From a virus, in the IMG/VR virus record IMGVR_UViG_3300037493_003022, positions 1 to 64,000 of that record: a stretch of 64,000 nucleotides of DNA; one strand, given 5' to 3'. This document shows, piece by piece, positions 834-58,036 of the stretch (its first letter is position 1; each line of letters starts with the position of its first letter). The notes under the pieces are model-generated. The model saw nothing but the letters and a program-made list of their open reading frames with translations. It did no database searches and was not told where the DNA came from. A program made the position numbers and the translations under genes.

Positions 834-1811
834 CTACGCTGCCAGGAGTTCTGCGGAGCGACAAAGCTCGACGATAGAGAACTCTCTTCTGACAACATCA
901 TCGGGGTCACTGTTTTCAGAATCGGCCGGATATTCGATCCCACTCACGAGAATCGACTTAAAAAGAAACTTCGCTAATTTGTCTCTTCCAGTTCTTCCGG
1001 CAACGTCATTATCCAAAAACAAAATGACCTCATTTGAAAAACCCTTAATACTTTGAATTTGTCGCTTTGAAGGATCAGAGCCGAGAAGTCCGACTACAGA
1101 ATATTCGTCAAGAGCGTTTTCCTTTCTCAACGCTTGCCAGACGGAAACTGTGTCTAGTAGCCCCTCGACAACGATCAGCTTCTCTCCCCGTACAAGATGT
1201 TCGCCGAACAAGTACCTCGACTTATCAAAATTGAAATAATTAAAGTACCGAATGTGGTGATCGTTGACAGTTCTCCCAACCGCGCCAACTAACAAACCTG
1301 AACGATTTCTGACGGGAAATACTGCGCGTTTTCGTGTCGTGTCATAACCACATTCCCAGATCCTCAAAGTTTCAATTTCTAGTCCCCGCCGAATTACATA
1401 GCGGGGAACTACGCCGAACATGGGAGCTAGTTCTTTTTCGTCAATTATATTTTCTGGTTCGACCTCCACTTTCTCACTATAGCTAGGAATCTTTTCTAGC
1501 AGTGCTTCTGGGTCTTGTTGTTCGAGTTGAGTTACTTTTCTAATAAGAGTTGAAAGATCCAACTCTGCTTCTCTGGAATACTTAACGAGAGTGTACGCAA
1601 GGGAGCCGCTGTGCTTGCACGATAAACAATGAACCAAGGACACTCCATCTGGAGATATGGAGATACCCATGGAGGATCTACGCTTATGAACTTCTCGGTG
1701 GGTTTTCGCACAAGACTCTAAGAAGCAAACGCACTGGACATTTCGAGACCCCGGTTGCACACCTTCGGCGTCGATTATTTCGAGAACTTCGAGTATGCCT
1801 TCTCTATCCAT
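834..1811 (-). CDS. DNA primase, DnaG-like (zinc ribbon plus TOPRIM)
   Basis: 325 aa. It should make RNA primers for phage DNA replication with the helicase encoded upstream. The N-terminal zinc-ribbon region holds Cys27/29/34 and the pair Cys62-x2-Cys65. A TOPRIM domain follows: VVEGLLD with Glu218, then FLDNDVAG with Asp268 and Asp270, the acidic metal-binding residues. At 325 aa it is shorter than bacterial DnaG (about 580 aa) and lacks an obvious C-terminal helicase-binding domain. The start overlaps the end of the 76-aa gene by 8 nt, which places it in one operon with helicase and loader. Confidence 0.88.
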   Translation of the reverse strand: MDREGILEVLEIIDAEGVQPGSRNVQCVCFLESCAKTHREVHKRRSSMGISISPDGVSLVHCLSCKHSGSLAYTLVKYSREAELDLSTLIRKVTQLEQQDPEALLEKIPSYSEKVEVEPENIIDEKELAPMFGVVPRYVIRRGLEIETLRIWECGYDTTRKRAVFPVRNRSGLLVGAVGRTVNDHHIRYFNYFNFDKSRYLFGEHLVRGEKLIVVEGLLDTVSVWQALRKENALDEYSVVGLLGSDPSKRQIQSIKGFSNEVILFLDNDVAGRTGRDKLAKFLFKSILVSGIEYPADSENSDPDDVVRREFSIVELCRSAELLAA

Positions 1812-2034
1812 CGTCTTCCTCGAGCAACGTCAAAATCGTATCAATCTGTGTGCAGGTGGTATCCCCACCACCCGTTCTTTCATTTTCGACACGTCTAGCA
1901 ACGAACTCCCTCTGCTCCTTCAAATACTCGATTGAAGGGCGATCGTCGTGCAATTCGAGTCTAGTTATAGCATAATCGATTGCTTCGAGAAGCCTAAAAT
2001 AAAGTGGTTGCTCTAGCGTGATTTTAGCTACCAT
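1804..2034 (-). CDS. Small protein between helicase and primase genes
   Basis: 76 aa, not recognised. It is predicted to be mostly helical and charged, with no membrane segment or signal peptide. Its ATG overlaps the helicase stop codon in a TAATG junction and its stop overlaps the primase start by 8 nt. It is therefore probably translated by coupling and may serve the replisome. That role is inferred from position alone. Confidence 0.7.
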   Translation of the reverse strand: MVAKITLEQPLYFRLLEAIDYAITRLELHDDRPSIEYLKEQREFVARRVENERTGGGDTTCTQIDTILTLLEEDDG

Positions 2035-3290
2035 TAGTAGTCCACCGGGCCTTGTTTATCATACGGTTTTGCATCTTGAGGGAGATCATTCAGGGTCTTA
2101 ACATCGAATTTCATATAGTCCAAGTCCCAATCGCAAACCCAATCCTTATTCATACCCTCTCTATGTTTCGCTATCTTCATGAGCATCTCCTTATTGTTCT
2201 TCAAATTCTCATCTTGATAGACACCTATGATCAGGTCGAACCACATTTGAACGTCGCCATACTTTAGAGTATCAGCGGTTCCTTCTAAACCTTTTCCCTC
2301 TTTCGAAAACTGATGGGTCATAACGATCGGGATGTTTTCTCTGAGGGCAAGCTTCTTTAAATCCCAGCAAACATTCTTAAACTTCTCCCATCCCTCTTTA
2401 GCCTTACGATCGTCGGAGACGAGATAACCACCGTCAATGTAAACAATAGCAGGATGATACCTTTGAATCTTAGCGGCGATACCTGTGACGCCAATCATTC
2501 CCTCGTCATCACCAATAACCCAAAAGTCAGGTTTATTCTTTAAGTCCTCTAAAGTCCTTTCCCAGCGAAAGAATTCATCTGTGGTGAGCTGTCCTGCTTT
2601 GAATCTCTGATAGGGAAGCTGAGCGTTTACAGCGTCAAGTCGTCTTATTATTTGCCAGATAGCCATTTCGTTAGAAAACAAAAGAGGAAGACAACCTGCT
2701 TTCCAGTTAAACCAAGATAAAACAACTTCACACCACGACTTTCCCACGCCGCCCCTACCCGCAATCATGATAAGTTCGCCAGGATTAAAGCCTTGAGTAG
2801 CTTCATTAAGAACACCCCAAGGAGTGGGTATGCCTGTTATACCGCCGCTAAGTTGAGCTTCGTTGTATCTATCAAGACGTTCTCTAACCTGATCCCGAAA
2901 GTTAAAATCTTTTGTTGAACGAGTTTCATTTTCAACTTTAAGTACGCACTGCTGCATTATCTCTAATGCAGCCATAGGATCCTTACCTTTGAGATGCTTC
3001 ATCAGAGAACCCTGATGTTCCATGATGGTGTTATGAATATGTCTCTTCTTTAATTCTGAAATAAACAGTGTTATCGGAGTGTTTAAATCTAGAACTTCAA
3101 ACTCTGGAAATCGCTCTTGAACTAAATTTGCTGGAGGAAGTCCTCCGTGTTCCCTGTAACTCTCTGTTACGAACTTCCAAATACCTGCGTGATCAACAAA
3201 CAGATCATCGCTTACACGAGAGTCAATTACTTTCAGAATCTCCTCGGGGTGATGAAGCACCCTGGAGATGAGAGCGCCTTCAAAGTCCAT
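2034..3290 (-). CDS. Replicative DNA helicase, DnaB-like
   Basis: 418 aa. Residues 1-120 look like a DnaB N-terminal helical domain and residues about 145-400 like a RecA-type ATPase. Walker A is GRGGVGKS at 178-185. A Walker B-like strand (IVYIDGG) lies near 285, followed by the HQFSKEGKG segment typical of DnaB motif H3/H4. The protein should unwind the fork 5'-3' as a hexamer and is loaded by the DnaC-like protein encoded about 1.5 kb upstream. It is slightly shorter than E. coli DnaB (471 aa). Confidence 0.9.
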   Translation of the reverse strand: MDFEGALISRVLHHPEEILKVIDSRVSDDLFVDHAGIWKFVTESYREHGGLPPANLVQERFPEFEVLDLNTPITLFISELKKRHIHNTIMEHQGSLMKHLKGKDPMAALEIMQQCVLKVENETRSTKDFNFRDQVRERLDRYNEAQLSGGITGIPTPWGVLNEATQGFNPGELIMIAGRGGVGKSWCEVVLSWFNWKAGCLPLLFSNEMAIWQIIRRLDAVNAQLPYQRFKAGQLTTDEFFRWERTLEDLKNKPDFWVIGDDEGMIGVTGIAAKIQRYHPAIVYIDGGYLVSDDRKAKEGWEKFKNVCWDLKKLALRENIPIVMTHQFSKEGKGLEGTADTLKYGDVQMWFDLIIGVYQDENLKNNKEMLMKIAKHREGMNKDWVCDWDLDYMKFDVKTLNDLPQDAKPYDKQGPVDY

Positions 3291-3291
3291 G

Positions 3292-3720
3292 CTATGCCTT
3301 CTCTCCCCAGTTGGCGTGAGGAACTGCTATGCCGTCCAGGCCCATCAATTCGGGGTCGTTTGTAAAGACTTTGTAGACCTGTGGAGTTTGGCGAAGCCAG
3401 AGTCGAAACTCTTGCCTATCGTCGAAGTGGTAGGTATCGACGACGTAATCTCCAAGAACCATATCTAAGGCACGAGCAATGAGAGGAACGCCTACTGAGA
3501 TGGCGACTATCCTATGCTGCTCAAGAGCAGTTTCTATCCAACCTCTCGCTCCTCTTTTCATGGGAAGTGCCCTTTTCATAAGAGTTTCGAAACTCTTATG
3601 AAGGAGCAATTCGGGTATTTTTTTAACAAACCATGAATACTCTTTTCTCTCTTCTATGAGGATTCGATAGTCAACTCCACAGATAGCAGCGGGACGATTA
3701 GAGAGCTCTCCCCTTTTCAT
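3292..3720 (-). CDS. Unknown basic protein, possibly HAD-like fold
   Basis: 142 aa from the ATG at 3720, which I prefer because GAGGGG lies just upstream; an ATG at 3741 would add 7 residues without a ribosome site. The N-terminus is basic. The C-terminal half (RALDMVLGDYVVDTYHF... YKVFTNDPELMG) has the alternating strand/helix look of an HAD-like domain, but I see no DxDxT nucleophile motif, so any catalytic role is doubtful. It lies in the replication cluster two bases before the helicase gene. Confidence 0.6.
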   Translation of the reverse strand: MKRGELSNRPAAICGVDYRILIEERKEYSWFVKKIPELLLHKSFETLMKRALPMKRGARGWIETALEQHRIVAISVGVPLIARALDMVLGDYVVDTYHFDDRQEFRLWLRQTPQVYKVFTNDPELMGLDGIAVPHANWGEKA

Positions 3721-3856
3721 CCTTCCCCTCTTTCTTCTCATAGTAGGAACGAACTAGATCAACAGCAATATCCACCACAAGGGGAACCTGCGGAGGAGAG
3801 ACTTTCTGCTTCCTTCTGAAAATACGAGAAAAGAAATTCTTTATTTTTTTTATCAT
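3698..3856 (-). CDS. Small basic amphipathic protein
   Basis: 52 aa (MIKKIKNFFSRIF...). The chosen ATG at 3856 overlaps the stop of the upstream 325-aa gene in an ATGA junction; an in-frame ATG at 3913 would force a 61-nt overlap. The N-terminal 18 residues are strongly basic and amphipathic (KKIKNFFSRIFRRK), which could bind membranes or nucleic acid. The next gene overlaps its 3' end by 23 nt. No family is recognised. Confidence 0.55.
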   Translation of the reverse strand: MIKKIKNFFSRIFRRKQKVSPPQVPLVVDIAVDLVRSYYEKKEGKDEKGRAL

Positions 3857-4830
3857 CCCACCAGATCCTTTGGCATGATCGCATTTGGGCCAACAAATAA
3901 TTCCTTTGGCCACTTCTTCATAGCTGCGTCGCGGGTTCTCTGATAGCGACCACCCGGAATGTCATCATCCCACCGACCATATTGGGCTGTTCCAATAGCT
4001 TGAATTAACTTTCTCGGGAAGACATCCCCGTTTTGGAATCCTGGTCGATAGGCAGAATCAATAACTTTGCAGAGGATCTTTAGTGCATATCCAGGAGCAT
4101 TAACTGAATTACTCCAATAGACAGACATAGCTAAATCGAGAGCATGGGACATCCCAGCAATCTCTTTCATATCAGAGTACACAACAGTCTTTAAGGTTTC
4201 ATTAGATAGAGCACCCTTTGTGCAGAATCTGAGTTTTTTAAAAGAATCTTTTTGAAAATTATCTGTGCCGTACTTTAATTGAGTTTCAAAAGTCCACTCA
4301 GAAGAAAAAAGCTTATGAAACATCTTGATAACGGACTCAGCGCCAATTCTCGAAGCACCCATTTTTGGAAGAACTCCTTCTTCATCCCCTGATAAAAGTC
4401 TCCTGAGAGTTTTTCCACGAAGCTTGAATGTAAATCCTACGGGATACGCGGTAGACTTTTCAATATAAATGCCCATTCGGAATAACCAATCTTCAAACTC
4501 ATTCCACGGACAATCGGTAATAGGAGCTTCTAAGTGAGTAAGCCAATGAGCTTTCAAGTCAGAAATGAGTTCCCATAACGGACCTTGGTCATTCTCCTTA
4601 TTATTATCATCGAGTGCTCTGGGATAAACAGCGATAGCTTGATGAATACCTGCGGTCATCCCAGTGCCATCGTAATTCATCACGGTTCCGAATTTTCCAC
4701 CTGATTCAACTTGAGCAGTAAGCCAAGACGCCCTGGAGAGATGGGAGATATCGAAGTCTTCAGGCTCAGGCATGTCGATCTTTCCGTTTATTTTAAGCCC
4801 AGCAAATTTTCCAAATGTGATTCGCTCCAT
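3853..4830 (-). CDS. Putative lysozyme-superfamily cell-wall hydrolase
   Basis: 325 aa, no signal peptide. Residues 40-66 contain ESGGKFGTVMNYDG followed by TAGIHQAI. Glu42, Asp54 and Thr59 in the setting E-x11-D-x4-T-x-G resemble the Glu/Asp/Thr triad and the T-x-G motif of T4-type lysozymes and GH46 chitosanases. I infer a muramidase-like endolysin that would need the holin-like protein to reach the wall. The other 260 residues are unfamiliar. It sits between the helicase loader and replication genes, away from the lysis cassette at 8.3-9.4 kb. An AAGGGAG ribosome site supports the start. Confidence 0.5.
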   Translation of the reverse strand: MERITFGKFAGLKINGKIDMPEPEDFDISHLSRASWLTAQVESGGKFGTVMNYDGTGMTAGIHQAIAVYPRALDDNNKENDQGPLWELISDLKAHWLTHLEAPITDCPWNEFEDWLFRMGIYIEKSTAYPVGFTFKLRGKTLRRLLSGDEEGVLPKMGASRIGAESVIKMFHKLFSSEWTFETQLKYGTDNFQKDSFKKLRFCTKGALSNETLKTVVYSDMKEIAGMSHALDLAMSVYWSNSVNAPGYALKILCKVIDSAYRPGFQNGDVFPRKLIQAIGTAQYGRWDDDIPGGRYQRTRDAAMKKWPKELFVGPNAIMPKDLVG

Positions 4831-4831
4831 C

Positions 4832-5446
4832 TCATTCTCCCTTCAGGTAGGTTTTTACTAGCTTGTTGCTAATTTTTTCTCTTCGAGAACTTCCGCCTAG
4901 CTTAATCGGAATCATACATTCCTTAGCTAGTTCTCCAGTGGATGGTCCGTAGATATTCGTAAACTCATCGGGGGGAAGGTTAGAAGTTATGCTAGTAGGT
5001 AGCTTTCTTCTGCATCTATCGCGGAGTAAAGAACCAAAAGCAGTTTCTGAAAAACCACTTGCGGTTCGATACTCTTTACCTAGATCGTCGATGACTAAAA
5101 AATTCACGTAATTTATACGCTCAATAACAGTCTCATTAGAATCAGGGTTTGCAGGAAAATCCTTTATGAAGGCTTCCTTTAATTCTGCTGCGCGGATTAT
5201 GTAACTTGAAATTCGAAATTGAGCTGTCGCTTCGATACAAAGAGCTGAAGCAACATAAGACTTACCCGTCGAATTCGGACCCCATAGAAAAATACCAACT
5301 CCATCTCGAATAGCCTCTCCTAATTTATCAGGATAGCTACCGAGAGCCTCTTCTTGACTACTCGTCAGAAGGTTTAGTCTTGAAGACCAATACCGCTTTC
5401 CTAGGTTCATGTACTTTAGATGATTTTCCGTTATCTCCACTGGCAT
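4832..5446 (-). CDS. Helicase loader, DnaC/IstB-like AAA+ ATPase
   Basis: 204 aa. Walker A is GPNSTGKS at 56-63. Walker B is FLVIDDLGKEY with Asp120/Asp121. A sensor-like ITSNLPPDEF follows at about 158-167. DnaC-type ATPases load the replicative helicase onto single-stranded DNA, matching the DnaB-like gene nearby. The start overlaps the upstream gene by 89 nt, but an excellent ribosome site (AAAGGAGG, 6 nt spacing) lies before this ATG, so I keep the long overlap. Confidence 0.88.
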   Translation of the reverse strand: MPVEITENHLKYMNLGKRYWSSRLNLLTSSQEEALGSYPDKLGEAIRDGVGIFLWGPNSTGKSYVASALCIEATAQFRISSYIIRAAELKEAFIKDFPANPDSNETVIERINYVNFLVIDDLGKEYRTASGFSETAFGSLLRDRCRRKLPTSITSNLPPDEFTNIYGPSTGELAKECMIPIKLGGSSRREKISNKLVKTYLKGE

Positions 5447-5708
5447 TCTTGGCCTCCTTTTTTGTCTTATCTATTTCTGGAGCCCTCGTTACCTTCTGTT
5501 CAGGAATTCGATACTTCTGCATATAGGATCTTTTGATTCGAATCATGTCGATCTCGGTTCTAGCGGTAAACTTAACCAGAACCTTATCCTGGAAACGAGG
5601 ATCGGTTACTTCCAGAAGATACTGGATTTCTTCCTCGTCTCGAATAGGAGTGATCTTCAATGCGCGGCATCGTGCCAAACCAGCTTCGCTCATTCGTGAA
5701 TATGTCAT
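5358..5708 (-). CDS. Unknown protein with charged C-terminal tail
   Basis: 116 aa, not recognised. Residues 1-70 look folded; residues 75-116 are Lys/Glu/Ser rich and probably disordered. The last 89 nt also encode the start of the DnaC-like gene in another frame. The gene starts one base after the winged-helix gene stops, so the three genes are probably co-transcribed and coupled. A role in replication is a guess from context. Confidence 0.65.
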   Translation of the reverse strand: MTYSRMSEAGLARCRALKITPIRDEEEIQYLLEVTDPRFQDKVLVKFTARTEIDMIRIKRSYMQKYRIPEQKVTRAPEIDKTKKEAKNASGDNGKSSKVHEPRKAVLVFKTKPSDE

Positions 5709-54432: not shown

Positions 54433-54677
54433 TACCTCTTCTCCTGTAACGCATTATTCTGTGTGTCTTGTCGTGTCTGCGTCTCATTCTCTTTTACACC
54501 AAGATCCCCATACGTCCTAACGACGACATTCTTGCCGGAACCTTCTGCAAAAGCATCCCTCATAAGATCAATTTTTGTCTTCGGAGGTGTCGGTGGAACT
54601 TTTCTAGTCTCATGAAAAAGTTTCATTGACTCCGAAATCTTCCTTCTAGTTTCGTCTGATCGCTGCATTAGTCCCAT
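54432..54677 (-). CDS. Small protein with NUMOD3-like motif
   Basis: 81 aa. Residues 6-20 (RSDETRRKISESMK) closely resemble NUMOD3, a DNA-binding motif found in HNH and GIY-YIG homing endonucleases. There is no nuclease domain. The rest is Pro/Lys rich. Its start overlaps the terminase stop by 10 nt and its end touches the portal ATG. It may be an unusual DNA-binding packaging factor or the remnant of a homing endonuclease. Confidence 0.5.
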   Translation of the reverse strand: MGLMQRSDETRRKISESMKLFHETRKVPPTPPKTKIDLMRDAFAEGSGKNVVVRTYGDLGVKENETQTRQDTQNNALQEKR

Positions 54678-57600
54678 CTCCCATTGTGCCCCGGCCTGCT
54701 AGGACGCCTTGATTTGGGCTCAAACACCTTTCGGAATAAGGCCCCGGCTTCCCTCATATGACTCGCGGCTGTCCATCGGGCTTGTCTTCCAATGAACGGG
54801 TTGTCGGTCTCTTCTACTTCCATTGTGCCCTGAACATTGATTGCCCAGCAAAGAAGCATGGCCGAATCTGGGAAGTCGTCGTAGCAGTTGTCGCCGTCCT
54901 TGGGCTTGTGAACAACCATCTGCTGGCCACGCCACTCTTTTTCAAGGTCGTGCATCTGATTTACGAACTTCTGCCACTTCAAGAGTCGCGTGGCCTGAGC
55001 GCCAGCCGGGAAGGTGAAACGCTTCGAACTGATCTCCTGGGAGAACACTTTGTAGCCAACATCCTTGGATGCCGCCGTGAAAATGAATGGTTCGACATGA
55101 ATGTTGTACTCCATAAGATCCGCTGCGAGTCGGGAGTACACAGGATCGCCCTTACCAGTTGCGTCGATTACAACTTGGCTTATTTGGTAGTTCTTCAGGA
55201 ACTCAAGGATTTGAGGGTGCTGAGCTTCATGGTTGTCTCCATGAAGTTCGAGCCAATTTAGGATGTGGATAGGATACCTGCTTGCCCCGCCAACATCGAT
55301 TGGAGAATCCCAGAACGCTTTTCCAACAGTAACAACGGTAGAGTTCGCGCGTCCAACGTCGATGGCTGCGATGATATTTTCCGTCTTATTATCGTAGGTG
55401 ACTACGTTTGGAGCCCTCTCAAAGTGAACAATCTTCTTGTTCTTGCCTTTTCCGATCTCAATAGTTAGTCGGTTGTCCTTGTCTTTTATTCCGCACTCGT
55501 CGAACAGCTCTGGGTTTACGAACATACCCCGGTCGAGGAGCCAATGAAGTCGATACTTCAGTCTGAAATCGTCAGAATCCTCTCCAAGTCGCTCTATTTC
55601 TTTCAGAATATACTTACGATAACGAGGATTGTACTTCTGTCCAACTGTGTAATCGTACTCGTAATGCCTTCTGTAGCGAGAACGAACAGACCCATCGCTA
55701 ACATCAGCTCGTTTATTACGACGACAGGCTTCATAAAAGTCAGATCTAACTCTGTTACAGGTGCCAATTTTTACGAGAGTACCGGCTGTGTTATGTACGA
55801 CTATATTATTGGCAATGAAATTGTGCGCCGGATCTGGCATCTCTATATCATAAACCTGCTGTTTGCCAGATGATTCAATCGACACAACCCGTTCCCAAAC
55901 TAAGTCGTTGTCTAACTCCTTTGCGTATCTTTTAGATCCAGATCCAACTATAATTGACGCTCGTCTCTTATTTCCTCTGAATTCCAAAACTTTTTCTGCG
56001 ATGACAATCGAGTTACGCTTTCTTTCAACTAGCAGTGGTATGTTTTTGCAGAAAGCTAGTACGCTATCTTTATCTGAAGTATCTAACTTATAATAGATGC
56101 TCCCCTTTTCTGCGTAGCCTTTTCCATTAGAAATAGCTTCGTAGATAGAACTCTGTATTCCAAACTTAATTAGAAGATGAGATACTTCTTCAAGAATAAC
56201 TCTGTTTGCCTGCGATAGTGAGATTGTTACTTTTCGTTCAGTAACTCCTATTGTTCCGTCTGTATCGTATAGTCCTCCTAGGAACGCAGCTACTTCCTCT
56301 TTTTTGCACTCCCAGATATTAGACGGAACCCTCTTTTTATCCTTTGTCTGACCGTAGATGTTGGCGGCTCTCAGGAGATTTATCGCTGGGTTTTTACCTT
56401 TTTTTGAGCCCTCGACTGAACTAATGCAGCGGACTTCTTTGTACTCTCTTCTTGCCGAAGTTGTATGGCCTCGTTCTTCTCGACAAGATCCGAGTTGCCT
56501 AACCATCCAATCGCCAAGGAAGTCATGTAGCTCTTTGTCTTCTCCAGAAAAAGCTGGGCTGCAATCCTTGTGGTACGACCCGTCCCCTACAAGCATTCCT
56601 AGAACCCTGGCCTCCTCGACACCTATGGAATTTGTTCCAAAGAAAGGAACAGCTCTCGGAACTGCTATCTGATAACCAACTTTTATATTCTGGAGCGTTT
56701 CCCATTTCGGTAGTCTCGGATACGCCCTCGGTTTCCAGATGACTGGGTGGTCTAAAGTCCCTGTTATCTTCTTTCCTGAATTCAAAGTCATCGTAAGACA
56801 TTCTTGAATTCCGCTATCTATCTTCCTTATAGGAGTTCCTCTCATGAAATGCAGCGTCTCGGAGAAGCACCCGGTCTCCTTTATTGGCATGTCGTCAAGA
56901 CGAACAATCCTACCGTTTGCCAGTGGAATTAAAGAGTCGCCTGTGATACACGCCGCTGCCATCGGATGGATAGACGCGCGAATCTGGCTGGAAGGAATGT
57001 CCTGCGACTCTTCCAGAAGGATCAAGTGGTAGGTCTTTCCTTCAATCTTCGATTGGGGAGAGGCAGTACCGCAGTCAACGAAGGAACCGTTTGGCAAGAC
57101 CATGTTCTCTCGAACATCGGTCAGATCCATGTCTACGTCGGGGTCTAGGAGGGCAGTTTTAGACTCCTTGGAGTACATTCGGGCCTTCATGCGATTCCAC
57201 ATGATTCCGGCCTGAAGGTAGTTGGGAGCATAAATGCCTATCCAAACTCCTCTTTCGAACTTCTTTATTCTCTCATCGTGAGGAAGATTTTTGGCTAGGA
57301 TTGGAAGGAGTACAGATAACCCGCATACAGTTACGGCTACCGTTTCAGTGTTGTGAGTTACTGTTCCATCTTCAAGCAAGAAACGCTTATTTCCGTCCAA
57401 CACGAAACCAAAATAGCTCCCGTTACCAGCTTTTGTTATTGAAAAACAATACTTGTCTAAGCCGTTAGAGGATCTTATACCTCTAAAAAGATGCTCTTTC
57501 CCTAATACTTCCTGTATATGAACGTCCCTGACACTGTTTTCTGAGACATCGAACAGGGTAAGTATGTGACTTTCATTTACGGTGTACCTACTGTACCTGG

Positions 57601-58036
57601 AGTCGTCTGGGGAGATCGTCAGGAGTTTCCCGTATCCGTCTGCGATGGACAATACATTTCTAGCTGTCGAATCATCGCCCATCAGCTTGTCGCCAACCCT
57701 CACCTCTTCGACTGGCTTTACGGTTCCGTCGAACATGAGAATTGGTGTGCCTTTTGCCAGGCACTTTCCCATCTGACGGGCGAACAATGCGGTAATTTCT
57801 TCTGCATCTTCGCAAAGCAATGAATAGACAATTCGCCATCCAAACTCTAACTCATAGGGGTACAGCTCCACCCCAGTCATATCCTGGGAGTAGGCCATAA
57901 CCATATCAGCTAGTTTGGATAACTCATCTTTCGTAAGATCCCTTTGAGGAATCCCGCTGACGTTATCCGCCACTGCTTTTTCGTAGTCGATTGGCTGCTT
58001 CTGTGTCTTTGGCGTGTCTTTCATGTCCACGACCAT
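54668..58036 (-). CDS. Terminase large subunit with two inteins
   Basis: 1122 aa precursor. After removal of the inteins (residues 92-229 and 363-749) the extein is about 597 aa. ATPase: Walker A FARQMGK|T, split by intein 1; Walker B LILLEES with Glu342/343; a later motif IRASIHPMAAA|TAGTLVKIGT, split by intein 2. Nuclease (RNase H-like): AAIDVGRANST (Asp893), VVIDATG (Asp958) and YDDFPDSA (Asp1054/Asp1057). It packages DNA into proheads via the portal encoded downstream. There is no ribosome site near the ATG at 58036 or the alternative at 58024, so the start is uncertain. A terminator precedes it. Confidence 0.92.
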   Translation of the reverse strand: MVVDMKDTPKTQKQPIDYEKAVADNVSGIPQRDLTKDELSKLADMVMAYSQDMTGVELYPYELEFGWRIVYSLLCEDAEEITALFARQMGKCLAKGTPILMFDGTVKPVEEVRVGDKLMGDDSTARNVLSIADGYGKLLTISPDDSRYSRYTVNESHILTLFDVSENSVRDVHIQEVLGKEHLFRGIRSSNGLDKYCFSITKAGNGSYFGFVLDGNKRFLLEDGTVTHNTETVAVTVCGLSVLLPILAKNLPHDERIKKFERGVWIGIYAPNYLQAGIMWNRMKARMYSKESKTALLDPDVDMDLTDVRENMVLPNGSFVDCGTASPQSKIEGKTYHLILLEESQDIPSSQIRASIHPMAAACITGDSLIPLANGRIVRLDDMPIKETGCFSETLHFMRGTPIRKIDSGIQECLTMTLNSGKKITGTLDHPVIWKPRAYPRLPKWETLQNIKVGYQIAVPRAVPFFGTNSIGVEEARVLGMLVGDGSYHKDCSPAFSGEDKELHDFLGDWMVRQLGSCREERGHTTSARREYKEVRCISSVEGSKKGKNPAINLLRAANIYGQTKDKKRVPSNIWECKKEEVAAFLGGLYDTDGTIGVTERKVTISLSQANRVILEEVSHLLIKFGIQSSIYEAISNGKGYAEKGSIYYKLDTSDKDSVLAFCKNIPLLVERKRNSIVIAEKVLEFRGNKRRASIIVGSGSKRYAKELDNDLVWERVVSIESSGKQQVYDIEMPDPAHNFIANNIVVHNTAGTLVKIGTCNRVRSDFYEACRRNKRADVSDGSVRSRYRRHYEYDYTVGQKYNPRYRKYILKEIERLGEDSDDFRLKYRLHWLLDRGMFVNPELFDECGIKDKDNRLTIEIGKGKNKKIVHFERAPNVVTYDNKTENIIAAIDVGRANSTVVTVGKAFWDSPIDVGGASRYPIHILNWLELHGDNHEAQHPQILEFLKNYQISQVVIDATGKGDPVYSRLAADLMEYNIHVEPFIFTAASKDVGYKVFSQEISSKRFTFPAGAQATRLLKWQKFVNQMHDLEKEWRGQQMVVHKPKDGDNCYDDFPDSAMLLCWAINVQGTMEVEETDNPFIGRQARWTAASHMREAGALFRKVFEPKSRRPSRPGHNGRWD
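55790..56950 (-). mobile_element. Intein 2 with LAGLIDADG endonuclease, in the terminase
   Basis: 387 aa (residues 363-749). It begins at Cys363 (CITGDSLIP), carries a block B-like GTLDHPV (427-433), two LAGLIDADG motifs (VLGMLVGDGSY near 478-488 and AFLGGLYDTDGTIG near 584-597), block F (VYDIEMPDPAHNFIANN) and ends VVHN with Asn749 before Thr750. Hint-domain splicing rejoins IHPMAAA to TAGTLV. The LAGLIDADG pair makes it a candidate homing element, with Asp present at both motifs. Confidence 0.92.
57350..57763 (-). other. Intein 1, mini-intein in terminase Walker A
   Basis: 138 aa (residues 92-229). It starts Cys92 (CLAKGTPILMFDG), has block B VNESHILTL near 153-161, block F/G GYFGFVLDGNKRF-like residues near 209-219 and ends VTHN with Asn229 before Thr230. 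There is no LAGLIDADG or HNH domain, so it cannot home alone. Splicing restores MGKTET, the phosphate-binding loop, so the unspliced terminase should be inactive. Confidence 0.9.

Follow-up and report, generated by a model that had tools for sequence, protein, structure and literature searches.

Two inteins, distinct in lineage and size, in the terminase large subunit precursor of a tailed phage

The terminase large subunit (TerL) gene in the window, the 64,000-nt stretch of viral DNA analyzed here, carries what by sequence are two true inteins, differing in lineage and size. Very probably, its product is an inactive TerL precursor from which two independent class 1 inteins splice themselves out to give a 597-aa motor, with intein 1 an old element lacking a homing endonuclease (HEN) and intein 2 a mobile one. 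The source is a tailed phage, from a virus record of 113 kb, in which TerL is followed downstream by a portal gene (54432-52792) and then by capsid and contractile-tail genes. Taking out aa 92-229 and aa 363-749 of the 1122-aa product leaves the 597-aa extein; the reading frame, the coordinates and lengths of both inteins, the extein length, and the border residues given in an earlier note on this DNA were all exact to the base. The parts of the gene are listed below, with arrows marking insertion points here and throughout.

54668..58036, minus strand: TerL precursor gene, a single frame of 1122 codons comprising the 597-aa extein and two inteins
57764..58036, minus strand: N-extein, aa 1-91, closing with Walker A RQMGK (57764-57778)
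57350..57763, minus strand: intein 1, a 138-aa mini-intein with Cys1, VNESH as block B, THN↓T at its end, and a PI-SceI/VMA-like Hint domain
56951..57349, minus strand: middle extein, 399 bp, whose first residue is the Walker A Thr, with Walker B LILLEE at 57008-57025
55790..56950, minus strand: intein 2, 387 aa with a LAGLIDADG endonuclease, Cys1, GTLDH as block B, and VVHN↓T at its end
56573..56605, minus strand: LAGLIDADG motif 1 of intein 2, around VLGMLVGDGS, with the catalytic-type Asp at intein residue 123
56255..56284, minus strand: LAGLIDADG motif 2 of intein 2, FLGGLYDTDG, with the catalytic-type Asp at intein residue 231
54668..55789, minus strand: C-extein, with motif III KIGT at 55760-55771 and the RNase H-like nuclease domain after it

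Several comparisons identify the extein as a terminase large subunit. It matches a TerL phrog in PHROGs (4.1e-7), and tblastn aligns it with the TerL of Streptomyces phage BRock at 32% identity (5e-80); its Pfam matches, Terminase_6C (0.0063) and Terminase_6N (0.037), are both below the cut-offs. Structure prediction was performed on the TerL of L001, which is 87% identical and naturally free of inteins, as a proxy for the window extein (pLDDT 80.7), and a fold search with this model retrieved T4 gp17 (2.0e-14), HK97 TerL (1.7e-12), and the D6E and Sf6 terminases. Walker A, Walker B (extein aa 200-205), motif III (extein aa 231-234), and an RNase H-like nuclease fold, the last taken from the L001 model, are all present. 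In a model of the precursor, the terminase parts are good, intein 1 is middling, and intein 2 is unreliable, with a pLDDT of ~25-45 over much of its length. The extein has a G+C content of 49%, against 45% in intein 1 and 43% in intein 2.

Three intein-free TerLs, L001 (87% identical), L002 (73%), and L004 (68%), align gap-free with the extein over both junctions, passing through RQxGK↓TET and IHPMAAA↓(T/V)AGTLV. Each insert is in frame and has the marks of a class 1 intein: Cys1, a block B His, a terminal His-Asn, a +1 Thr, and a Hint profile match. In Pfam, intein 1 matches Hom_end_hint (3.9e-19), and intein 2 matches Intein_splicing (6.3e-14) and LAGLIDADG_3 (6.8e-17). The earlier note had described a Cys start and a His-Asn end before Thr for both inteins and had named extein continuity and profile searches with Hint and LAGLIDADG models as checks; the borders are as described, and both checks came out in favor of inteins.

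Intein 1 splits the P-loop of Walker A between Lys and Thr (RQMGK↓T). Among the sequences of solved structures it matches PI-SceI (2.9e-8), and its region has a fold match to the Prp8 intein 6mwy (9.8e-8), typing it as a PI-SceI/VMA/Prp8-like mini-intein. The same P-loop site holds inteins of 334-336 aa with a LAGLIDADG domain in L003, L005, L033, and L048, and alignment of intein 1 with the 334-aa inteins of L003 and L005 leaves one large gap, the block that contains both LAGLIDADG motifs. The proposal that intein 1 has no endonuclease is thus borne out, as its 138 aa lack the HEN block of these relatives. Wider relatives of intein 1, mostly 330-350 aa long with a HEN, interrupt many phage ATPases at Walker A, following its GK (or G).

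Intein 2 is of another type, DnaB/GyrA-like by profile and by solved relatives. Both of its LAGLIDADG motifs keep the catalytic Asp (Asp123 and Asp231), and its endonuclease is apparently intact. Its insertion point, referred to here as site 2, is 8 residues ahead of the motif III GT, within the loop that separates Walker B from motif III; in the L001 model, this loop joins helix 209-221 to the strand leading into the GT. Of the claim that both inteins sit at ATPase active-site motifs, the part on intein 1, which is inside Walker A, stands, whereas intein 2 adjoins motif III and is outside any catalytic motif. Inteins at the same site in L041 and L089 are without the second catalytic Asp, and that of L102 has an internal deletion. 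As a single query against viral contigs, intein 2 gave no match, and besides L102, L041, and L089, a four-member profile (A7) retrieved only a single distant locus, L214.

In the mechanism that we propose, the precursor would stay inactive until both inteins leave by protein splicing, and because the P-loop is split, we infer, as had been suggested before, that packaging must depend on splicing. Intein 1 would be an old P-loop intein whose HEN and self-mobility are gone. The intein 2 endonuclease would cut the empty site near motif III in intein-free TerL genes, and repair would copy the intein in. Both inteins may persist because the insertion codons are too conserved for easy loss, and we presume that they are excised constitutively. 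Splicing in Escherichia coli has been published for TerL inteins, two of which also cut their empty sites (PMC5050341).

The extein tree places the window TerL as sister to the intein-free L001, followed by L003 and L005 with full P-loop inteins, and places L041 in another clade with the intein-free L039 and the full-P-loop L033. The window and L041 each have an intein-free sister that is 87% identical, and intein presence is patchy even at this level of extein identity. The absence of either intein from L001, the closest relative, means that loss in L001 or recent gain in the window has to be assumed. Inteins and exteins were compared by dN, dS being saturated. Intein 2 and the L102 intein share 79.7% of their amino acids (dN 0.147) against 65.2% for the exteins (dN 0.298), and because the intein pair is closer than the host exteins are, this comparison indicates horizontal movement of intein 2. 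Intein 1 and the L003 intein are 51% identical in amino acids (dN 0.49) against 79.5% for the exteins (dN 0.163), with intein 1 evolving ~3 times faster than the extein; between L003 and L005, dN is 0.219 for the P-loop intein and 0.085 for the extein, a ratio similar to that of the window and L003 (2.6-3x). The divergence of intein 1 would fit vertical descent at an accelerated rate, although the intein 1 tree is poorly resolved: the AU test gave p = 0.37 for its grouping with L003/L005 and p = 0.14 for its grouping with L041. A single origin of the window and L041 mini-inteins is accordingly neither rejected nor supported, and the L041 mini-intein groups weakly with the full-length intein of L033 (support, 85/82). 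Separate endonuclease losses in the window and L041 lineages are plausible but unproven. Overall, intein 1 looks like the older resident. The earlier view that the two inteins differ in age fits a fast-evolving intein 1 that has lost its HEN and a horizontally moved intein 2 with an apparently intact one, with the caveat of the poorly resolved intein 1 tree.

Among the TerL frames retrieved as relatives, inteins were found at six sites of the gene.

P-loop site: window, L041, L089, L003, L005, L033, L048, L007, L221
Walker B site, LLEE↓TQD: L007, L040, L046, L089
QK↓SI site: L012, L094
Site 2: window, L041, L089, L102, L011
Site three residues past site 2: L056
Nuclease motif site, DDY↓CDS: L036-L038, L089

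L041 has the same pair as the window, a 138-aa mini P-loop intein plus a site-2 intein, and L007 has another pair. In L089 (IMGVR_UViG_3300028840_007352), a single metagenomic contig, one 1425-aa TerL frame (1382-5656) holds four inteins, at the P-loop (143 aa), Walker B (197 aa), site 2 (304 aa), and the nuclease site (162 aa); all four have canonical ends and a Pfam Hint/intein domain, in two cases below cut-off. No report of more than two inteins in one terminase was found in the literature searched, the coverage of which is incomplete, nor was any linking "multiple inteins" or "co-homing" with terminase, subscription papers being largely outside this coverage.

Several other inserts were observed in this family. 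The 251-aa insert with intein-like ends in the nuclease active-site motif DDY↓CDS of L036 (3947-6550), also found in L037 and L038, has no Pfam Hint match and is homologous to the fourth intein of L089 (36%). The Walker B inteins of L040 (1545-4442) and L046 (1566-4442) are 368-372 aa long, with no recognizable endonuclease when their middle part was read by eye, and those of L089 and L007 are 197-205 aa. L016 (826-1950) and L017 (1036-2121), which are Dulem viruses 42 and 41, have relatives of intein 2 at YG↓TGGT or VG↓TGGS. This insertion place is apparently motif III itself, unlike site 2, yet the target word resembles that of site 2 (SA↓TGGT), and ectopic homing is possible. In the L039 record (G004:C1:16849-17712), a separate 566-aa frame ~0.6 kb upstream of the intein-free TerL gave an intein profile match.

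Could the two inteins of the window travel together? Under co-homing, a cut made by the intein 2 endonuclease 399 bp away would carry along, and so preserve, the HEN-less P-loop intein by co-conversion, and loss of the second endonuclease would be favored, since two active endonucleases close to each other block joint homing. All three fully HEN-less P-loop inteins (window, L041, and L089) are accompanied by a site-2 intein, compared with none of the six longer ones (L003, L005, L033, L048, L007, and L221). This association (Fisher p = 0.012, post hoc and with no correction for shared ancestry, in a small sample of 3 versus 6) suggests co-homing, as does the position of the window and L041, both paired, in different extein clades. 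Moreover, two active neighboring endonucleases home together poorly, and a mini-intein beside a HEN-bearing neighbor has been named as an untested case (PMC10643990). However, L102, the closest site-2 relative, has no P-loop intein, so intein 2 could have made its latest move without intein 1. The site-2 endonucleases of L041 and L089 look damaged, the partly decayed, 284-aa P-loop intein of L221 reveals that the HEN can decay where intein 2 is absent, and archaeal mcm gave no phylogenetic sign of co-homing (PMC10643990). Nor did sliding nucleotide and third-position identity reveal a mosaic indicative of a co-conversion tract near either site, whether the window was compared with L001, L003, L005, L102, L041, and L089 or L041 with L039 and L033. 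We therefore consider co-homing rather unlikely. If it is true, neighboring inteins in this family would cease to interfere with each other once one endonuclease is lost, and the mini-intein could spread through its neighbor's cut.

The earlier note had also raised redox- or stress-conditional splicing of one or both Cys-type inteins as a gate for DNA packaging. Splicing at Walker A would act as an on-switch, conditional splicing has been shown by other inteins (cited in PMC7156551), and gating was proposed, without experiment, for cyanophage Mic1 (PMC7156551). A redox gate calls for a flanking extein Cys placed to trap Cys1, but the 8 extein residues flanking each junction on either side include no Cys, and the nearest extein Cys are ordinary TerL residues, found in intein-free relatives too. 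Intein 1 itself contains only Cys1 and Cys106. Intein-free sisters are common and package without inteins, so a gate is not needed; the patchy presence of the inteins likewise argues against one, and TerL inteins tested elsewhere spliced rapidly or readily (PMC5050341). Such gating thus finds no support and is very improbable. That the inserts are in-frame domains kept in mature TerL rather than inteins is hardly credible at all, given the Hint profiles, the canonical terminal residues, the insertion between Lys and Thr of the catalytic P-loop, and the precise empty sites.

Besides the two independent inteins of TerL, the same record has three more intein-bearing genes beyond the window, bringing the total to five inteins in four genes.

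G000:C1:104665-105792: RecA-like recombinase
G000:C1:110152-110874: DNA polymerase A
G000:C1:85497-86711: probable TGT/DpdA-like (transglycosylase-like) enzyme, with a Ser1 intein at SIDS↓TTWVGGSR

Pfam intein matches were found in 3 of 13 related records, a count made with a model that misses some types, such as that of L036. The 64,000-nt window contains no RNA-family introns or tRNAs, and a search of bacterial genomes gave one distant match only. The TerL relatives form a graded series across the six sites, from empty through one full, one decayed, and two inteins to four, with L089 as the extreme, whose packaging motor has inteins in four of its catalytic regions. As a natural test bed for neighboring inteins that help or hinder each other, the family is worth more than any single case, and it offers a phage test of how often a mini-intein homes on its neighbor's endonuclease, a question left open in PMC10643990. 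For annotation, automatic tools may call a 1122-aa or 1425-aa "terminase" or overlook TerL.

Two-intein TerLs are already published, and the window TerL is a clean further example. The statement that two inteins in one terminase are uncommon was overstated in view of the published doubles (PMC7156551 and PMC7886860), the pairs of L041 and L007, and the four inteins of L089. Like the window TerL, Mic1 TerL has two inteins with Cys/Asn borders, one of them in the ATPase domain, and a homing endonuclease domain in at least the large intein (PMC7156551); the other Mic1 intein interrupts the nuclease domain, as one does in L036 and L089, whereas both inteins of the window are in the ATPase domain. 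The TerL of crAss-like phage OBYQ01000140 is likewise in three in-frame pieces around two inteins, but these are of the Hint-Hop type with TAG recoding (PMC7886860), and the window TerL shows no recoding. Mycobacteriophage TerL inteins comprise TerL1-a to -e and TerL6-f, with TerL1-e at the Walker B site and TerL6-f at the C-motif site (PMC5050341). Intein 1 shares the Lys↓Thr P-loop position of TerL1-a, whose host is a Terminase_1; the best Pfam match of the window TerL is Terminase_6, below cut-off, and intein 1 is therefore described as being at the same position and is not filed as TerL1-a. Intein 2, 8 residues before motif III, differs in place from the mycobacteriophage sites. The promiscuous inteins of phage P-loop NTPases (helicases, AAA+ ATPases, and terminases) are likewise inserted at Walker A, and intein 1 differs in lacking the HEN. 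Human-gut phage MT835482 has a homologous TerL intein (~30% identity) at the same site as intein 2 (SA↓TGGTLVKVGT), as its only intein, in a TerL ~35% identical to that of the window. Finally, haloarchaeal MCM-a and MCM-d resemble the window pair as two neighboring inteins in one ATPase gene and differ in that both endonucleases are active in the strain studied (PMC10643990).
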